A DNA stretch of 64,000 bases from Hyphomicrobiales bacterium (GTDB lineage Bacteria; Pseudomonadota; Alphaproteobacteria; Rhizobiales; Rhizobiaceae). Made by a program: the position numbers and the translations under genes. The stretch spans positions 34,435-98,434 of the forward strand of contig JAPLOZ010000092.1 of the NCBI GenBank assembly GCA_026400435.1, read 5' to 3'. Positions 20,276 through 28,087 of the stretch are shown piece by piece (the stretch's first letter is position 1; each line of letters starts with the position of its first letter). Under the pieces are notes generated by a model, which had not been told where the DNA came from, did not search any database, and saw nothing but the letters and a program-made list of their open reading frames with translations.

Positions 20276-20292
20276 TTTAGAACTATTCCAAA
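20276..20292 (+). promoter_or_regulatory. ICE/Irr-box-like inverted repeat upstream of the Nfu gene
   Basis: TTTAGAACTATTCCAAA matches TTTAGAA-N3-TTCTAAA with one mismatch. The latter is the iron control element bound by Irr in rhizobia (family knowledge from memory). It ends 38 bp before the Nfu start codon, a position where Irr could block transcription. Confidence 0.6.
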
Positions 20293-20330: not shown

Positions 20331-20906
20331 ATGTTCATCCAGACCGAGGCGACGCCGAACCCGGCGACCCTGAAGTTTCTGCCCGGCAAGGAAGTTTTGC
20401 GCGACGGCACCGCCGATTTCCGCGACGCTGACAGCGCCGCCGCCGCCTCGCCGCTCGCCGGCAAGCTGTTTTCGATTCACGGCGTGACGGGCGTGTTCTT
20501 CGGCTACGATTTCGTCACCGTGACCAAGAACGACAGTCTCGAATGGCAGCACCTCAAGCCGGCCATTCTGGGCGCCATCATGGAGCATTTCATGACCGGC
20601 GCGCCGGTCATGGCCAATGGCAAGGCAAATGACGATGCGGGCGACCTTGCCGAAGAGTTCTACGACAAGGCCGACGCGGAGATCGTCGTCACCATCAAGG
20701 AACTGCTCGACACCCGCGTGCGCCCGGCGGTGGCGCAGGACGGCGGCGACATCACGTTCCGTGGCTACGAGAATGGAACGGTGTTCCTGAACATGAAGGG
20801 ATCGTGCGCTGGCTGCCCATCGTCGACGGCGACGCTGAAGCACGGCATCCAGAACCTCTTGCGGCACTTCGTGCCCGAGGTCCAGCAGGTCGAGCAGATC
20901 GCCTGA
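20331..20906 (+). CDS. Nfu/NifU-type iron-sulfur cluster carrier
   Basis: A 191-residue protein with an N-terminal Nfu_N domain (MFIQTEATPNPATLKFLPG) and a C-terminal NifU domain that carries the cluster-binding pair in GSCAGCPSS. It would carry Fe-S clusters to target apoproteins in the cytosol. The start is the ATG giving the family N-terminus; the ORF-track start seven codons earlier is unlikely. An ICE-like box upstream suggests iron control by Irr; rhizobial fssA, as I recall, is an Irr-controlled scaffold gene of this kind. A terminator follows directly. Confidence 0.95.
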   Translation: MFIQTEATPNPATLKFLPGKEVLRDGTADFRDADSAAAASPLAGKLFSIHGVTGVFFGYDFVTVTKNDSLEWQHLKPAILGAIMEHFMTGAPVMANGKANDDAGDLAEEFYDKADAEIVVTIKELLDTRVRPAVAQDGGDITFRGYENGTVFLNMKGSCAGCPSSTATLKHGIQNLLRHFVPEVQQVEQIA

Positions 20907-20931: not shown

Positions 20932-20956
20932 AGCCGGCGATCGGCCGGCTTTTTTT
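20932..20956 (+). terminator. Rho-independent terminator after the Nfu gene
   Basis: AGCCGGC-GATCG-GCCGGCT forms a 7-bp stem with a 5-base loop followed by seven T residues. It overlaps the stop of the converging DUF1513 gene; on the opposite strand there is only a short A/T flank, so it mainly serves the plus strand. Confidence 0.9.
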
Positions 20957-22064
20957 ACGCCTCGATCCTGAGCGCATGGTTGTCCCAGACGTGGTCGGCG
21001 TCTTCCGACGACCGGCCGTCAGGCTCGACGATCGAGCCGGTTCCGGTGGTGACAAGGAAGCCTGAACGGTCGGGGGCCACGCCGCACACCTCGGTCAGCA
21101 GCCGCGTTGCGACGACCTTCGCGGTCGCCGCGTCGATGATGGAGAATGCATTGCCCTGCGGCGAGGTCACCGCGATCGTTCCCGCCTTGCGGTTTGCCGC
21201 CACCGAGCCGATGTAGTTGCGGAAGCCTGAAAGCACCGGCTCCGGCATCTCGATCAGCTCCAGCTCCTTCCCGCGCACCGCCCGGCCAACGAGCGCCGGC
21301 CGCTCCGTCGCCGGACCCTCGTGCTGGCAGCCGAACCACACCGCGCCTGTCTGGTCGGTGTCCATGTGGCGGATCGAAAGCTGGTGCAGCGCGGACGGCA
21401 GCTCATGCTTCTCGATGAGATCGCCGGTCATGCGGTCGACCAGCGCGTAGGATGGCTTCATGGTCGGCAGGTTGAGCTTGGCGCGTCCGAAATCGGGATG
21501 CGTCTCAATGCCGCCGTTGGCAACCGCGATGGTGCGGCCGTCGCCGAGCAGCAAAAGTTCGTGCGGGCCGACGCCATGGGTCGGAAATTCACCGAGACGC
21601 GCAAAGCCGGCTCCGGCGTCATAGACGCCGATCATGCCTGCGGCGTTGTCGAAGTCGTTCTCCGTGGCGTAGAGCAGCGCTCCGTCGGACGAAAAGACGC
21701 CGTGGCCGAAGAAGTGCCGGCCGGCCACGCTCTGGACTGTCACAGGTTGCATCTTCCCGGCATGGTCGAAGACGACGAAAAAAGTGCCGGGCTGGCGGGC
21801 GAAGACGACAGAACGGCCCGAAACAGGGTCGAAGGTGATGTCGTGGCCGCGGTCGGGCAGTTCGACGACGCGCAGTATTTGGCCGGCTTCCGAGAGGATC
21901 GCCGCGCCATAGGCGCCATCGCGGCGCTGGTAGGCAGTGGCGAACACGGCGTCGGTCTCGAGCGTTGCGGCAAGCGCCGCCGGCGCCAGCGACGACAAAT
22001 AGACGGCGCCCGCCGCCGTGAGGAAGTCCCTGCGGTCGATGAGCCGGCGGCGGTCCGTCATCAT
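20955..22064 (-). CDS. DUF1513 protein, Tat-exported
   Basis: A 369-residue periplasmic protein with a Tat signal (DRRDFLTAAG, cleavage near ALA). The body is a beta-propeller-like series with GHDITFDPVSGRSVVFAR and GVGPHELLLLGDGRTIAVANGG, typical of DUF1513. Family members sit with imelysin and di-heme proteins in iron-uptake operons, as here. Its ATG overlaps the stop of the second imelysin gene (ATGA). A biochemical activity is not known to me. It is the last gene of the operon. Confidence 0.88.
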   Translation of the reverse strand: MMTDRRRLIDRRDFLTAAGAVYLSSLAPAALAATLETDAVFATAYQRRDGAYGAAILSEAGQILRVVELPDRGHDITFDPVSGRSVVFARQPGTFFVVFDHAGKMQPVTVQSVAGRHFFGHGVFSSDGALLYATENDFDNAAGMIGVYDAGAGFARLGEFPTHGVGPHELLLLGDGRTIAVANGGIETHPDFGRAKLNLPTMKPSYALVDRMTGDLIEKHELPSALHQLSIRHMDTDQTGAVWFGCQHEGPATERPALVGRAVRGKELELIEMPEPVLSGFRNYIGSVAANRKAGTIAVTSPQGNAFSIIDAATAKVVATRLLTEVCGVAPDRSGFLVTTGTGSIVEPDGRSSEDADHVWDNHALRIEA

Positions 22065-23154
22065 CAGTCTCCGTCTAGCGACGAAAAGCCGGCCGTGAGG
22101 CCAAGCGCGCCCGACATCTGCGTGCCGAAGATGTCGGACAGGCTCGATGTGACGAGGCCGAAATAGGCAAGCTTGGCGCGCCTGTCCGGATCGGCGAGCA
22201 CGGCCGCGATGGGTCCGTCGGCGCCCTTCGCGGCGCTTGCCGCATTGGCGAATTCAAACAGCGCCGACTTGCCCATGTAGCTCGCTTCGGCGGGCAGGGC
22301 GTCGGCAAGATGCGAGGCCTCCAGCAGGTCGCGCATGCCGGCAAGATTTCCTGCCAGCGCATCGACGGTCTTGTTCGAGCGCCAGAACAGCGCCTGCCGG
22401 GGCTTGTCGGCGGCCGCGTCCTTGCCGAGGAAGCCGCCGAGCCGCACGTCGCGCACCAGCTCGGTGCCGGTTACGAAAACGCCCATCAGTTCGGTGACAG
22501 CCTCGGTGCCGTCGCGGTATTGCGGATTTTGCGCGGATGGATTGGCCCAGATTGCTGCGAAACCGTCAGGCGCCGCCCATGCCGTCTCCAGCTCCTGGGC
22601 AATCGCGTCGAGATTGCCGGATATCGCCGCGCCATAGGCGCAGCGATGCTCGTCGCCGGTCGCAAGGGCCTCCGAGCCGGCGCCGTAAAGCACGAACTCA
22701 AGCGCGCCGAGCCCCTGCATGGCGACGCTTTTGCCAGCCAGTCCCGTGGCGTCCGTGACGGTCGGGTCCTTGTCGGCCAGCGCAGCCTGCACCTGCCTGA
22801 GGCCGGTGGCTTTTCGATCGGGCCAGAACAGGATGCGCTCGAGCCTGCTCTGTTCGGCCACCGGTCCGAAGCGGATGGTTTCGATGCGCGACCAGGCATC
22901 CACGGTTTTGGCGAATGTGGCACGGTCGGCGTCGAGCGCGGCCTGCGATGGCGCCGTGCAGAGTGCTTTGCCGGCTTCATAAAGTGCCGACGTCGATTGG
23001 TGGAAGGCGCGGTAGCCCGGCCGGATGAAGCCGTCGATCGATCGGGTGACGATGTCCGTCGCCTTGCTTGCCGACGCCGGACCGCCGCAAAGACAGACGA
23101 CGGTCGCCAGCGCCACCGCGGCAGCGACGGCAGAGGGGTGGTGCAGGATTTTCA

Positions 23155-23155
<1 letters not shown>
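22064..23155 (-). CDS. Imelysin-family protein with degenerate metal motif
   Basis: A 363-residue secreted protein of the imelysin (M75, insulin-cleaving metallopeptidase) family; the signal peptide ends near ASASKA. Imelysins carry a GxHxxE motif thought to bind metal. Here the equivalent stretch is GLGALEFVLYG, with Gly where His is expected, so metal binding is probably lost or different. I use the ATG at 23155, which overlaps the di-heme gene stop (ATGA), rather than the GTG one codon earlier in the ORF track. It sits between the di-heme protein and the DUF1513 protein. Confidence 0.88.
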
Positions 23156-24744
<1,589 letters not shown>

Positions 24745-24756
24745 GGTCTCATGGTC

Positions 24757-25050
24757 CTAGTGGCTCTCGGCCTCGTCGACGCAGTCGGCATCGAGTTGCT
24801 TGTAACTGGGCGCGGTACGGTGTGAAACGATGTCCGGCCCGCCCGCATGCGCGCCGGAATGGTAGTGTTGGGTTACCCGAATGATGGTTTCGACCACTTT
24901 GGGGAAGCAGCCGCAACAGCGGCCGCGCTTCTCCAGTGCATGGTACACCTTGGCCGGCACGATGAGGTGCCAGGGGTCTTGCTTGAGCAACTGGATGATC
25001 GTCTGCTCGACTTCCCTCTCCGTTATCATGTTGCAGTGGCAGACAAGCAT
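24757..25050 (-). CDS. bfd: Bacterioferritin-associated ferredoxin-like [2Fe-2S] protein
   Basis: A 97-residue protein. The Bfd/Fer2_BFD pattern is Cys-x-Cys near the N-terminus (MLVCHC, Cys4 and Cys6) and Cys-x2-Cys later (CCGC, Cys45 and Cys48). The gap between the two pairs is 38 residues, longer than the 31-33 usual for Bfd, and there is a 40-residue His/Asp-rich tail. Bfd normally reduces the iron in bacterioferritin to release it. It lies within the iron operon, between the first imelysin and the di-heme protein. A flavoprotein with ferredoxin-reductase features is encoded at 26825 and may be its reductase. Confidence 0.85.
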   Translation of the reverse strand: MLVCHCNMITEREVEQTIIQLLKQDPWHLIVPAKVYHALEKRGRCCGCFPKVVETIIRVTQHYHSGAHAGGPDIVSHRTAPSYKQLDADCVDEAESH

Positions 25051-25110: not shown

Positions 25111-26412
25111 TTATTCGAAGACCTTGTCGGGCGAATCGAGGCTGTCGGAGCCCTCGAAGGCGATAGCGTCCAGATTGAGTGCGGAAACCGCCCGCTCGAT
25201 CGACTTGGTCTGGTCTACAAGCGCGTCGATGGCCGCCTGCACGGCGGCATTGCCGGCCGCATTGCCTTCGCCGATCTGCTGGTCGTAGGCCTCGCCGGCG
25301 AGGGCGCGCGCCTCGATGGCTTCCATCGCCGCGACGGTAGCGTCGAGCTTGCCCGACAGTTCGGCGTCGGTCGCCGGGTCGGCGGCCTTGACGAGGTCGG
25401 CGACCGCGGGGCCTTCCACCTTGGAGCCGTCGATGCGCGTGTAGCTGCCATGATAGGCGTTGCGGATGCCGACGGCGTCGTAGAGATGCGAGATGTGTGT
25501 GTTGTCGGAGAAGCAGTCTTGTTCCTCCTCCGGATCGTGCAGCAAGAGGCCAAGCTTCATGCGCTCGCCTGCAAGCTCGCCATAGGAGAGCGAACCCATG
25601 CCGGTAAGTATGGTCGAGACGCCGGCCTGCGGCGTGCCTTCGAGAAGAGCCTTGCGGGCTTCGCCGTCGGCCGCCCAGTCGCCGACCATCTCCTGCAGGT
25701 CGGACACCAGGAGGTGGGACGCGGCGGCGAGGTACTGCGCGCGGCGGTCGCAGTGGCCGCCGGTGCAGTTGGCGGCGTCGTAGTCCGTGTAGGGGCGGTT
25801 GCCGGCGCCGGGACCCGTGCCGTTCAGGTCTTGGCCCCACAGCAGGAACTCGATCGCATGGTAGCCGGTCGCGACGTTGGCTTCGATATCGCCGGCCTCC
25901 TGCAGCGTTCCGGAAAGGAACTCCGGCGTGATGGTCGTGGCGTCGACCTTCTGGCCGTTGATTTCGATGGAGGTGTTGGCGATGACGTTGGCCGTGTAAA
26001 GCGTGTTTTCGTCGGATTCGGCGCCGTAGGAAGGGTCGACGTAGTCGATCAGTCCCTCATCCAGCGGCCAGGAATTCACGCGTCCTTCCCAGTCGTCGAC
26101 GATAGGGTTGCCGAAGCGGTACACTTCCGTCTGCTGATAGGGGATGCGGGCAGCCTTCCAAGCCTCGCGCGCGGTGGCGAGCGCTTCGGCGGAGGGCTTC
26201 GCAATCAGCGCAGCTACCGCCTGCTCCAGCGCCTGGGCGGTTGTCAGGGAATCCTCGTATTTGGCGAGCGCGATGTCGGCATAGGCGGCGATCACCGCGT
26301 TGGGGTCGGAGTCGGCCGAAGCAGGCGCCGCGCAAAACACCGCCGCCGCGGCAAGCGCCGCCCGCATGCCCGGCAACTTCCAGACGGGGCGCTGATTGCT
26401 GGCTCGGTTCAT
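25111..26412 (-). CDS. Imelysin-family periplasmic iron protein
   Basis: A 433-residue secreted protein; the signal peptide ends near ASADSD. The imelysin motif is complete here: GYHAIEFLLWG at about 183-193, giving GxHxxE. A RFGN-type segment (YRFGNPIVDDWEGRVNSWPLDE) marks the family. Imelysins are iron-regulated and may bind iron in the periplasm or outer membrane. The start has GAGGAG eight bases upstream. It leads an operon with the Bfd-like, di-heme, second imelysin and DUF1513 genes, read from a promoter that holds an ICE-like box. Confidence 0.92.
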   Translation of the reverse strand: MNRASNQRPVWKLPGMRAALAAAAVFCAAPASADSDPNAVIAAYADIALAKYEDSLTTAQALEQAVAALIAKPSAEALATAREAWKAARIPYQQTEVYRFGNPIVDDWEGRVNSWPLDEGLIDYVDPSYGAESDENTLYTANVIANTSIEINGQKVDATTITPEFLSGTLQEAGDIEANVATGYHAIEFLLWGQDLNGTGPGAGNRPYTDYDAANCTGGHCDRRAQYLAAASHLLVSDLQEMVGDWAADGEARKALLEGTPQAGVSTILTGMGSLSYGELAGERMKLGLLLHDPEEEQDCFSDNTHISHLYDAVGIRNAYHGSYTRIDGSKVEGPAVADLVKAADPATDAELSGKLDATVAAMEAIEARALAGEAYDQQIGEGNAAGNAAVQAAIDALVDQTKSIERAVSALNLDAIAFEGSDSLDSPDKVFE

Positions 26413-26676
26413 GTCGTCTCCTCAAAATGGCGCCGCGGCGGCGCACACAAACGGTTTCTGCGGGACTGGAGAAGCGAAATTTCCTGCAGCGCCCCTGTCC
26501 TCGTGGCACTCCACAGCGTGGCGGCGGACAGGCGGGAAAGTCACCGGAAATCCTCCAATCGAACGGGTTCAAGGCCCAGTCATCAAAGGGAATTGCCTTG
26601 GCAGGCGCCAGACTGATAGGCCGCGCGCCGCCATCGAGTCAATCCGGTTTCACGAAAAACCTAATCCGATCAATAG

Positions 26677-26693
26677 TTTAGAATTATTCTAAA
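26677..26693 (-). promoter_or_regulatory. Near-perfect ICE/Irr box in the iron operon promoter
   Basis: TTTAGAATTATTCTAAA is an inverted repeat of TTTAGAA around three bases, extended by one G/C pair to 19 bp with only the centre base unpaired. It equals the rhizobial Irr iron-control element as I remember it. It lies in the 412-bp divergent region, 265 bp before the imelysin start and 131 bp before the flavoprotein start. Besides this box the region shows only GC-rich filler and a small GCGCCGCGGCGGCGC hairpin; I see no gene in it. Confidence 0.75.
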
Positions 26694-26824
26694 CTGCAAC
26701 ACTCAGGTTTTACGCGCCTGCTACGGCTTGACACTTCGCTGCGCGGGATGCGACCCGATCGCGCCTGGGCGTGCCGCTCAGGGACATTCCGCTCAAGCGA
26801 CATTGTATTAGCTGTTGCAGGATC

Positions 26825-28087
26825 ATGAAGAACGGCGTTGTCATCATCGGTGCGGGCCACGCAGGCGTGCAGGCAGCCGCCAGCCTGCGCGACGAGGGCT
26901 ATGACGGACCGGTCCGGCTGATCGGCGACGAGGCCGAGCTTCCCTATCACAAGCCGCCTCTGTCGAAGACGTTCATCAAGGATGTCGACGCCAGGCCGCA
27001 GATCCTGCGCGCGGATTCATTCTACTCCGGCGCCGGCGTCGATCTTCTGCTTGGCGAACGCGCGATCAGGCTCGACCCGGCGGCGGGCAGGCTCGAACTG
27101 GCGTCCGGCGCGAGCCTCGCCTACGACAAGGCGATCCTCGCCACCGGTGCCCGCCCGCGCGTGCTTGCCATAGAAGGCGGGCTGCTCGCCGGCGTGCTGT
27201 CGCTGCGCTCCATCGCCGACGCGCGCGCCATCCGCGTGCTTGCCGCGACGGTCGAGGACGTCGTTATCCTCGGTGGCGGGTTCATCGGGCTTGAGATCGC
27301 CGCGACGCTGGTCGCCAGCAGACGCCGCGTCACTGTAGTCGAGGCGCAGGACCGGCTGCTGGCGCGCGTCGTCGCCCCCGCGATCTCCGCGCATGTCGCC
27401 GGACGGCTTGCCGCTTCGGGCGTGCGCGTGATGACGCGCACCACGGTGAGCCGGATCGAGGGCGACGACGGACATGTCAGCGCCGTCATCACCTCGGCGG
27501 GCGAGCGCATCGCGGCGCGCATGCTGATCGTCGGCATCGGCGTGGTGCCGAACGTCGAACTCGCCGCCGACGCGGGCCTGGCAATCGCCAACGGCATTCG
27601 CGTTGACGGCCAGTTGCGCAGCAGCGCGCCCAACATCTTCGCGATCGGCGACATCGCCAGCTACCGCCACTGGCTGACGGGCGGCGACGTGCGGCTGGAA
27701 TCGGTGCAGAACGCCACTGATCACGCCAAGCTCGCCGCGCGCGCCATCGTGGGACATGGCGACAGCTACGCCGCCGTGCCGTGGTTCTGGTCCGACATCG
27801 GCGACATGAAGCTGCAGATGGTCGGGCTGACCGGCGGCAGCGACCGCCAGATTGTCTCGGGCGAGCCGACCGACAACAGGTTCTCGGTGTTCCACTACAA
27901 AGGCGGCCGGCTGATCGGCGTCGAATCGGTCAACCGCCCGGCCGACCACATGCTTGGCCGCAGGATGCTTGCCGCCGGTTTTTCTCCGAGCCCCGAAGTC
28001 GTCGCGGCAGGAGACGGCAGCCTGAAGGCCGCGCTCGCGGCGTGGCAGGCCGCCCAGCCCCACCCGGACTCAGGTCGAGACGGCTGA
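26825..28087 (+). CDS. FAD-dependent oxidoreductase, ferredoxin reductase type
   Basis: A 420-residue flavoprotein. FAD site VVIIGAGHAGVQAAASL at the N-terminus, NAD(P)H site VVILGGGFIGLEIAATL near 150-170, FAD phosphate/ribityl motif FAIGDIASY near 278, and a C-terminal reductase domain (PWFWSDIGDMKLQMVGL). This is the layout of NAD(P)H-dependent ferredoxin/rubredoxin reductases. The ATG at 26825 gives the family start; the ORF-track start is 18 codons upstream. It is divergent from the iron operon, so it probably reduces the Bfd-like ferredoxin; substrate ferredoxin is inference. Its 3' end overlaps the converging FMN reductase gene by 18 bp. Confidence 0.9.
   Translation: MKNGVVIIGAGHAGVQAAASLRDEGYDGPVRLIGDEAELPYHKPPLSKTFIKDVDARPQILRADSFYSGAGVDLLLGERAIRLDPAAGRLELASGASLAYDKAILATGARPRVLAIEGGLLAGVLSLRSIADARAIRVLAATVEDVVILGGGFIGLEIAATLVASRRRVTVVEAQDRLLARVVAPAISAHVAGRLAASGVRVMTRTTVSRIEGDDGHVSAVITSAGERIAARMLIVGIGVVPNVELAADAGLAIANGIRVDGQLRSSAPNIFAIGDIASYRHWLTGGDVRLESVQNATDHAKLAARAIVGHGDSYAAVPWFWSDIGDMKLQMVGLTGGSDRQIVSGEPTDNRFSVFHYKGGRLIGVESVNRPADHMLGRRMLAAGFSPSPEVVAAGDGSLKAALAAWQAAQPHPDSGRDG

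Follow-up and report, generated by a model that had tools for sequence, protein, structure and literature searches.

Two conserved elements lie upstream of an imelysin operon in the 64,000-nucleotide stretch of DNA analysed here (the window): a perfect ICE (Irr box) and a 38-nt hairpin in the leader of the operon, which holds a Shine-Dalgarno sequence in its stem. We consider it probable that the box is a genuine Irr operator that activates the operon and that the hairpin acts as a translational layer, with the reservation that no binding, expression or structure-probing data exist. The 17-bp repeat is an ordinary member of the known ICE class and alone is an expected, modest result. In contrast, the hairpin was unexpected: in a sample of genomes from the order it precedes at least five kinds of iron uptake, storage and related genes, is coupled to ICE-like promoters and is absent from Rfam. 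The features are listed in Table 1.

Table 1. Positions of the regulatory elements and genes in the window.
Feature	Position	Strand	Basis or remark
ICE (Irr box), perfect 8-1-8 inverted repeat TTTAGAATTATTCTAAA	26677..26693	.	pattern match and conservation
-35 element TTGACT	26637..26642	-	34 bp beyond ICE; promoter role inferred from consensus
-10 element CTATCA	26614..26619	-	spacer 17; inferred from consensus
Conserved leader hairpin	26552..26589	-	alignment, folding, covariance model
Outer stem, CCUUUGAU with AUUGGAGG	26589-26582 with 26559-26552	-	
Inner stem, GGG with CCC	26577-26575 with 26567-26565	-	
Heptaloop CCUUGAA	26568..26574	-	nearly invariant among sites
Leader ORF, 40 aa	26422..26544	-	GTG start (26544) 7 nt after the Shine-Dalgarno strand; translation inferred
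Imelysin (Peptidase_M75), first long gene of operon	25111..26412	-	domain search
Bacterioferritin-associated ferredoxin-like protein (Fer2_BFD; bfd)	24757..25050	-	below Pfam cut-off; supported by position and homologues
Di-haem oxidoreductase (DHOR)	23155..24744	-	domain search
Second imelysin-domain protein	22064..23158	-	domain search
DUF1513 protein, last gene of operon	20955..22064	-	domain search
Divergent ferredoxin-reductase-type flavoprotein (Pyr_redox_2 and Reductase_C), possible second ICE target	26825..28087	+	domain search
Second ICE of window TTTAGAACTATTCCAAA (C13:54710)	20276..20292	.	1 mismatch; close upstream of nfu
NfuA-type Fe-S scaffold gene (Nfu_N and NifU; nfu)	20334..20906	+	domain search from first in-frame start, 20310

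The ICE, its probable regulator and its probable target operon

A member of the ICE class should be an inverted repeat of the form TTTAGAA-N3-TTCTAAA, should precede iron genes and be kept in the promoters of orthologues, and should occur in a genome that encodes Irr. The repeat at 26677-26693 meets the sequence requirement with 0 mismatches: when TTTAGAATTATTCTAAA is compared with the ICE form TTTAGAANNNTTCTAAA, no position differs and the 8-1-8 symmetry is complete. The requirements of position, conservation and an encoded Irr are also fulfilled, as described below. The first-pass annotation had reported a near-perfect Irr box between an imelysin-led operon and a flavoprotein gene. Its identification of the ICE, its placement of the box (inside the intergenic region 26413-26824) and its description of the flanking genes all hold; however, the repeat is perfect rather than near-perfect, and neither the other ICE of the window nor the conserved downstream hairpin had been noticed.

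Two sites with up to 3 mismatches were seen in the window against 0.08 expected by chance. The organism's own genome (3.88 Mb, 87.6% complete) was scanned by a pattern search with mismatch counts, not by a weight matrix, and the sole exact ICE was that at 26677-26693. ICEs with 2 or fewer mismatches were found at four places only, each just upstream of iron genes, namely the imelysin operon, mbfA, nfu and a gene for an FbpA-like iron-ABC binding protein. The 1-mismatch ICE at C13:26429 precedes the MbfA gene (NF045676, 575 bits against a cut-off of 450), and the 2-mismatch ICE at C52:7597 precedes the FbpA-like gene. The mbfA site is on the same contig as the window, about 8 kb before it. At 3 mismatches the reversed control pattern was commoner than the real pattern across the genome (43 versus 18). 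Therefore, only ICEs with 0-2 mismatches were counted as evidence. A 3-mismatch near-palindrome sits between ccmA-like and aconitase genes in the same genome.

Absence of an irr gene would have refuted the Irr reading. An irr gene is present at positions 16530-16874 of contig C58 of the organism's own genome (G000), and its product exceeds the cut-offs of two NCBIfam equivalog models (NF045678 IrrA, 220.9 bits against 150; NF045677 Irr, 206.9 bits against 170). The sequence has an HHH stretch and no Cys-Pro motif near the N-terminus. It is one of three Fur-family genes; the best model is Zur for one of the other two and Fur for the third, both below the cut-offs. Because rirA is also encoded (NF008886, 253 bits against 193), Irr is not the sole iron regulator, and possession of both genes makes the organism one of the Irr-plus-RirA type described in a review (PMC7762939). 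The placement among Irr-using Hyphomicrobiales, proposed earlier from the sequence, is borne out by the encoded irr and by the nearest named relatives of the imelysin, which belong to Mesorhizobium, Aminobacter, Pseudaminobacter and Oryzicola.

Conservation was followed in 80 named loci, which come from Mesorhizobium, Aminobacter and related genera. It should be mentioned that these loci were picked by imelysin similarity and are closely related; therefore, they are not 80 independent observations. An ICE with 0-1 mismatch was present in all 80 (70 exact and 10 with one change) and likewise in each of the ten orthologues that were closest in a set of 101 related genomes, and bfd was present in every one of these loci and orthologues. 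The more distant imelysin orthologues, nearly all without bfd, had no ICE at 0-1 mismatch, and a perfect ICE was looked for in distant Rhizobiaceae imelysin promoters and not found. In six of the distant loci without bfd (L032, L033, L035, L036, L042 and L045), a degenerate ICE right half, TTCTAAACTA, stands directly before TTTGACA, which suggests a moved or altered regulatory site. Irr control of the imelysin operon is thus supported by the site, the irr gene and conservation, as far as sequence data allow, and binding of Irr and irr-dependent expression are inferred.

The direction of Irr action and the gene that it serves have to be considered together. Irr activates or represses according to the position of the ICE, and activation is common (PMC7762939); on this ground, low-iron activation is inferred for the imelysin operon. 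The TTGAC of the -35 element does not vary among 10 aligned orthologues, and the distance from the ICE to this element fits activation by Irr when iron is low, an inference from geometry and gene content. The ICE of the organism's own fbpA-like gene lies about 33 bp from its -35 element, matching the imelysin operon; at mbfA, nfu and ccmA, in contrast, the ICE is close to the start codon or covers the likely promoter, an arrangement that fits repression. Low iron strongly induces the related gene irpA of Rhodobacter sphaeroides (PMC3413700) and raises the expression of its bfd-bfr genes (PMC4618611); IscR acts at the irpA-bfd-bfr operon of that organism (PMC4618611, PMC4344238). Nevertheless, low-iron repression is the best-known role of Irr (PMC3413700), and Irr might act through this box as a repressor of the imelysin operon, or the ICE might mainly serve the flavoprotein gene, which is divergent from the operon in most relatives and on whose side of the ICE a TTGACA is found. 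This sequence (window 26728-26733) is kept in most close relatives and is likely the -35 element of a divergent flavoprotein promoter. These alternatives are unlikely, although they keep some weight, because the ICE is distant from the imelysin -10 element without overlapping it, because iron-acquisition-type genes are expected to go up, not down, in low iron, and because the ICE is kept where the flavoprotein gene is missing (L057, L063, L066, L082, L111 and L123 in the named set; L026 and L028 among the relatives). Since the ICE persists in these loci, we assign it, on sequence grounds, to the leftward imelysin-bfd-DHOR-imelysin-DUF1513 operon and not clearly to the flavoprotein gene. Co-control of the flavoprotein gene by the ICE remains possible.

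The leader hairpin

Alignment of the intergenic regions contained a second block, CCTTTGATGNNNGGGCCTTGAACCC-N5-ATTGGAGG, with conservation equal to that of the ICE. This block is present in 79 of the 80 named loci; the exception, L111, has the ICE and no leader element. In the window the hairpin lies about 87 nt past the ICE on the imelysin side, and the 3' strand of its outer stem, AUUGGAGG, is a Shine-Dalgarno sequence. Conservation is highest in the loop rather than in the stem. Although the hairpin was predicted in all six sequences folded, it is weak, and its folding energies were not below those of shuffled sequence. Therefore, the case for the hairpin rests on comparison.

The comparison supports pairing. 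In a MAFFT alignment of 25 sites, 17 cells had two-sided changes; shuffling gave 6.5, and none of the 500 shuffles reached the observed count. In a MAFFT-only alignment of 71 sites there were 53 two-sided changes against 21.8 after shuffling, above all 500 shuffles; the covariation score of this alignment was 0.284 against 0.205 (0 of 500), and the score was far lower when the stem partners were slid. Because related sequences inflate covariation counts, the shuffle controls are not probabilities. An alignment fitted to the model agrees on covariation but is biased. The inner stem is clearly compensated; for example, GC, AU, UG, CG and UA occur at one pair. Support for the outer stem comes mainly from one-sided changes. 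Most of these affect the 5' side and leave the pairing intact (U to C opposite G, G to A opposite U), a pattern that would follow from the ribosome holding the 3' side fixed. RNAalifold gave both stems on the 25 sites and only the inner stem on the 71 diverse sites. A leader RNA that sequesters its Shine-Dalgarno sequence should have a covarying, conserved stem that includes this sequence beside a start codon. The hairpin has such a stem, with the qualification already given for its outer part.

The Shine-Dalgarno strand precedes a short leader ORF, the stop codon of which is 9 nt before the imelysin ATG. The start codon of this ORF is conserved and its peptide is poorly conserved. Because the peptide varies, no function is assigned to it, and translational coupling to imelysin is only a proposal.

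Two other explanations of the leader element were weighed. As an inverted repeat between promoter and gene it has a symmetry that can serve DNA binding, and the genome encodes RirA and a Fur/Mur-like protein; thus, it could be a DNA operator for RirA or Fur/Mur rather than an RNA structure. We regard this as quite improbable, however, because both stems contain G-U pairs, the bases of a pair change freely without loss of pairing, the element has the same orientation as the gene, its loop is more conserved than its stem, and its 3' strand is a Shine-Dalgarno sequence at a fixed distance from the start codon. The block could also be a conserved peptide-coding stretch or a leader-peptide gene, since a frame reading FDVWALNPFDW can be followed in most Mesorhizobium loci and similar residues are kept in a few distant ones (L031, L034 and L037). 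In about a dozen loci, however, a stop codon lies close upstream without a start in frame (only 2 codons away in L057, L123 and L026), and before fbpA the hairpin element is directly the gene's own Shine-Dalgarno sequence. Moreover, a fourfold-degenerate GCC codon is invariant among the aligned Mesorhizobium-type sites. A coding origin of any kind has hardly any credibility left, and the FDVWALNPFDW reading is ruled out by the upstream stops without a start and by the zero synonymous variation. An RNA hairpin is the reading that we retain.

Rfam gave no match for the window at E values up to 1, and none for 14 diverse loci at the gathering score. Without a covariance-model match, the hairpin is not assigned to any known Rfam family. 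No description of a known iron leader hairpin of this kind was found in the open-access literature, subscription papers being outside the scope of the search; this does not prove that the hairpin is undescribed.

Spread of the hairpin among iron genes

The core pattern with up to 2 mismatches occurred in 57 of 298 genomes of the order, and the reversed control in 0 among the genomes listed. Matches with 0-1 mismatch precede different iron genes. A covariance model (R1) built from 25 diverse sites detected, at E values up to 1e-4, about 90 sites in 71 of the 298 genomes. Outside the order, only weak matches were obtained in a class-wide sample of 385 genomes (best E value, 7.7e-5). No second copy of the hairpin was found in the organism's own genome, where the fbpA-like gene has an ICE and no recognisable hairpin.

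Genes for imelysin, ferric-ABC, bfd-bfr, FeoAB and FTR1 are preceded by the hairpin. Of 93 sites, the first recognised downstream gene was geneX or imelysin in 41, FbpA-like in 29 and bfd in 10. Readable cases among the other 13 are cupredoxin with FTR1 permease, FeoA(B), SufA-like, DUF2325 and an IsdG/ABM-type monooxygenase; both SufA cases score weakly, lack an ICE and could have arisen by chance. The geneX product belongs to a family of about 165 aa without a Pfam or NCBIfam match, recorded at eight loci (L023, L026, L028, L173, L199, L223, L262 and L263). The gene either separates the hairpin from imelysin, follows fbpA or stands by itself downstream of a divergent hairpin copy, and it probably encodes an iron-module protein of unknown function. 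L246, L249 and L250 each have two divergent hairpin copies within a single intergenic region, and most of the copies are preceded by an ICE-like site. Relatives of geneX follow the divergent copies.

The hairpin is coupled to the ICE on one side and to a start codon on the other. An ICE with up to 2 mismatches was found within 150 nt upstream of 45 of the 81 distinct hairpin sites with full upstream sequence, against 0.125 in shuffles, and the downstream control at these sites gave none. Typically, 72-102 nt separate the end of the ICE from the hairpin. An ATG or GTG follows the Shine-Dalgarno strand by 4-10 nt, most often 6 nt, in 65 of 69 distinct sites, leaving about 4 of the 69 without a well-placed start; the shifted-window control gave 7-14 of 81.

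Proposed control and comparison with known systems

Under low iron, haem-free Irr would most likely bind the ICE and activate the imelysin operon from about position -80, as judged from promoter geometry and gene content. The mRNA would then begin with the conserved hairpin (26589-26552), holding the Shine-Dalgarno sequence of the leader ORF directly before imelysin, and opening or closing of the hairpin through its CCUUGAA loop may add translational control. There would thus be two control layers, with Irr acting on the promoter and the hairpin on translation. Conservation, covariation, overlap with the Shine-Dalgarno sequence and association with iron genes are observed properties of the hairpin; its regulatory effect and a trans-acting factor are inferred. 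We also put forward, tentatively and at somewhat less than even chances, that in many Hyphomicrobiales this uncatalogued hairpin is a shared post-transcriptional iron element, in which a trans-acting RNA or protein reads CCUUGAA and jointly sets the translation of ferric-ABC, FeoAB, FTR1, imelysin and bfd-bfr genes atop Irr. Such an element would be a counterpart of the eukaryotic iron-responsive element (IRE) in logic only. If the hairpin regulates translation, rhizobia and their relatives have a shared RNA layer of iron control beside Irr and RirA. The small size of the hairpin (38 nt) and its conserved loop make it a concrete target, and the search for its partner is directly testable.

The operon resembles hemP-irpA-bfd-bfr-RSP_1545-1543 of Rhodobacter sphaeroides, in which an imelysin gene (irpA), bfd and a di-haem cytochrome-type gene are likewise joined in one iron-responsive operon (PMC4618611, PMC4344238). 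However, that operon is controlled by IscR and has hemP first, whereas the operon in the window has an ICE for Irr and no bfr, and carries the leader hairpin and a short ORF in place of hemP. The window ICE shares its inverted-repeat consensus with the known ICEs of Bradyrhizobium japonicum bfr and mbfA and of Rhodobacter sphaeroides mbfA and ccpA; Irr is present, and the target classes (mbfA, aconitase and iron genes) are alike. The window ICE differs in lying 34 bp upstream of the -35 element instead of over the promoter. A further difference is that the organism has RirA in addition, and Irr-binding data are lacking for its ICE.

Leader hairpins that sequester the Shine-Dalgarno sequence, such as RNA thermometers and translationally acting leaders, hold this sequence in a stem, as the window hairpin does. 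The window hairpin differs from these leaders in its conserved heptaloop and its exclusive link to iron genes, and no Rfam model matches it. The eukaryotic IRE is a small hairpin that is carried in iron-gene leaders and has a conserved loop, and the outline of the window hairpin is alike. However, loop and stem differ and no binding protein has been demonstrated for the hairpin, and we do not claim membership of the IRE class. What is unusual is that one conserved loop is common to uptake and storage iron genes of many kinds and is paired with ICE promoters.
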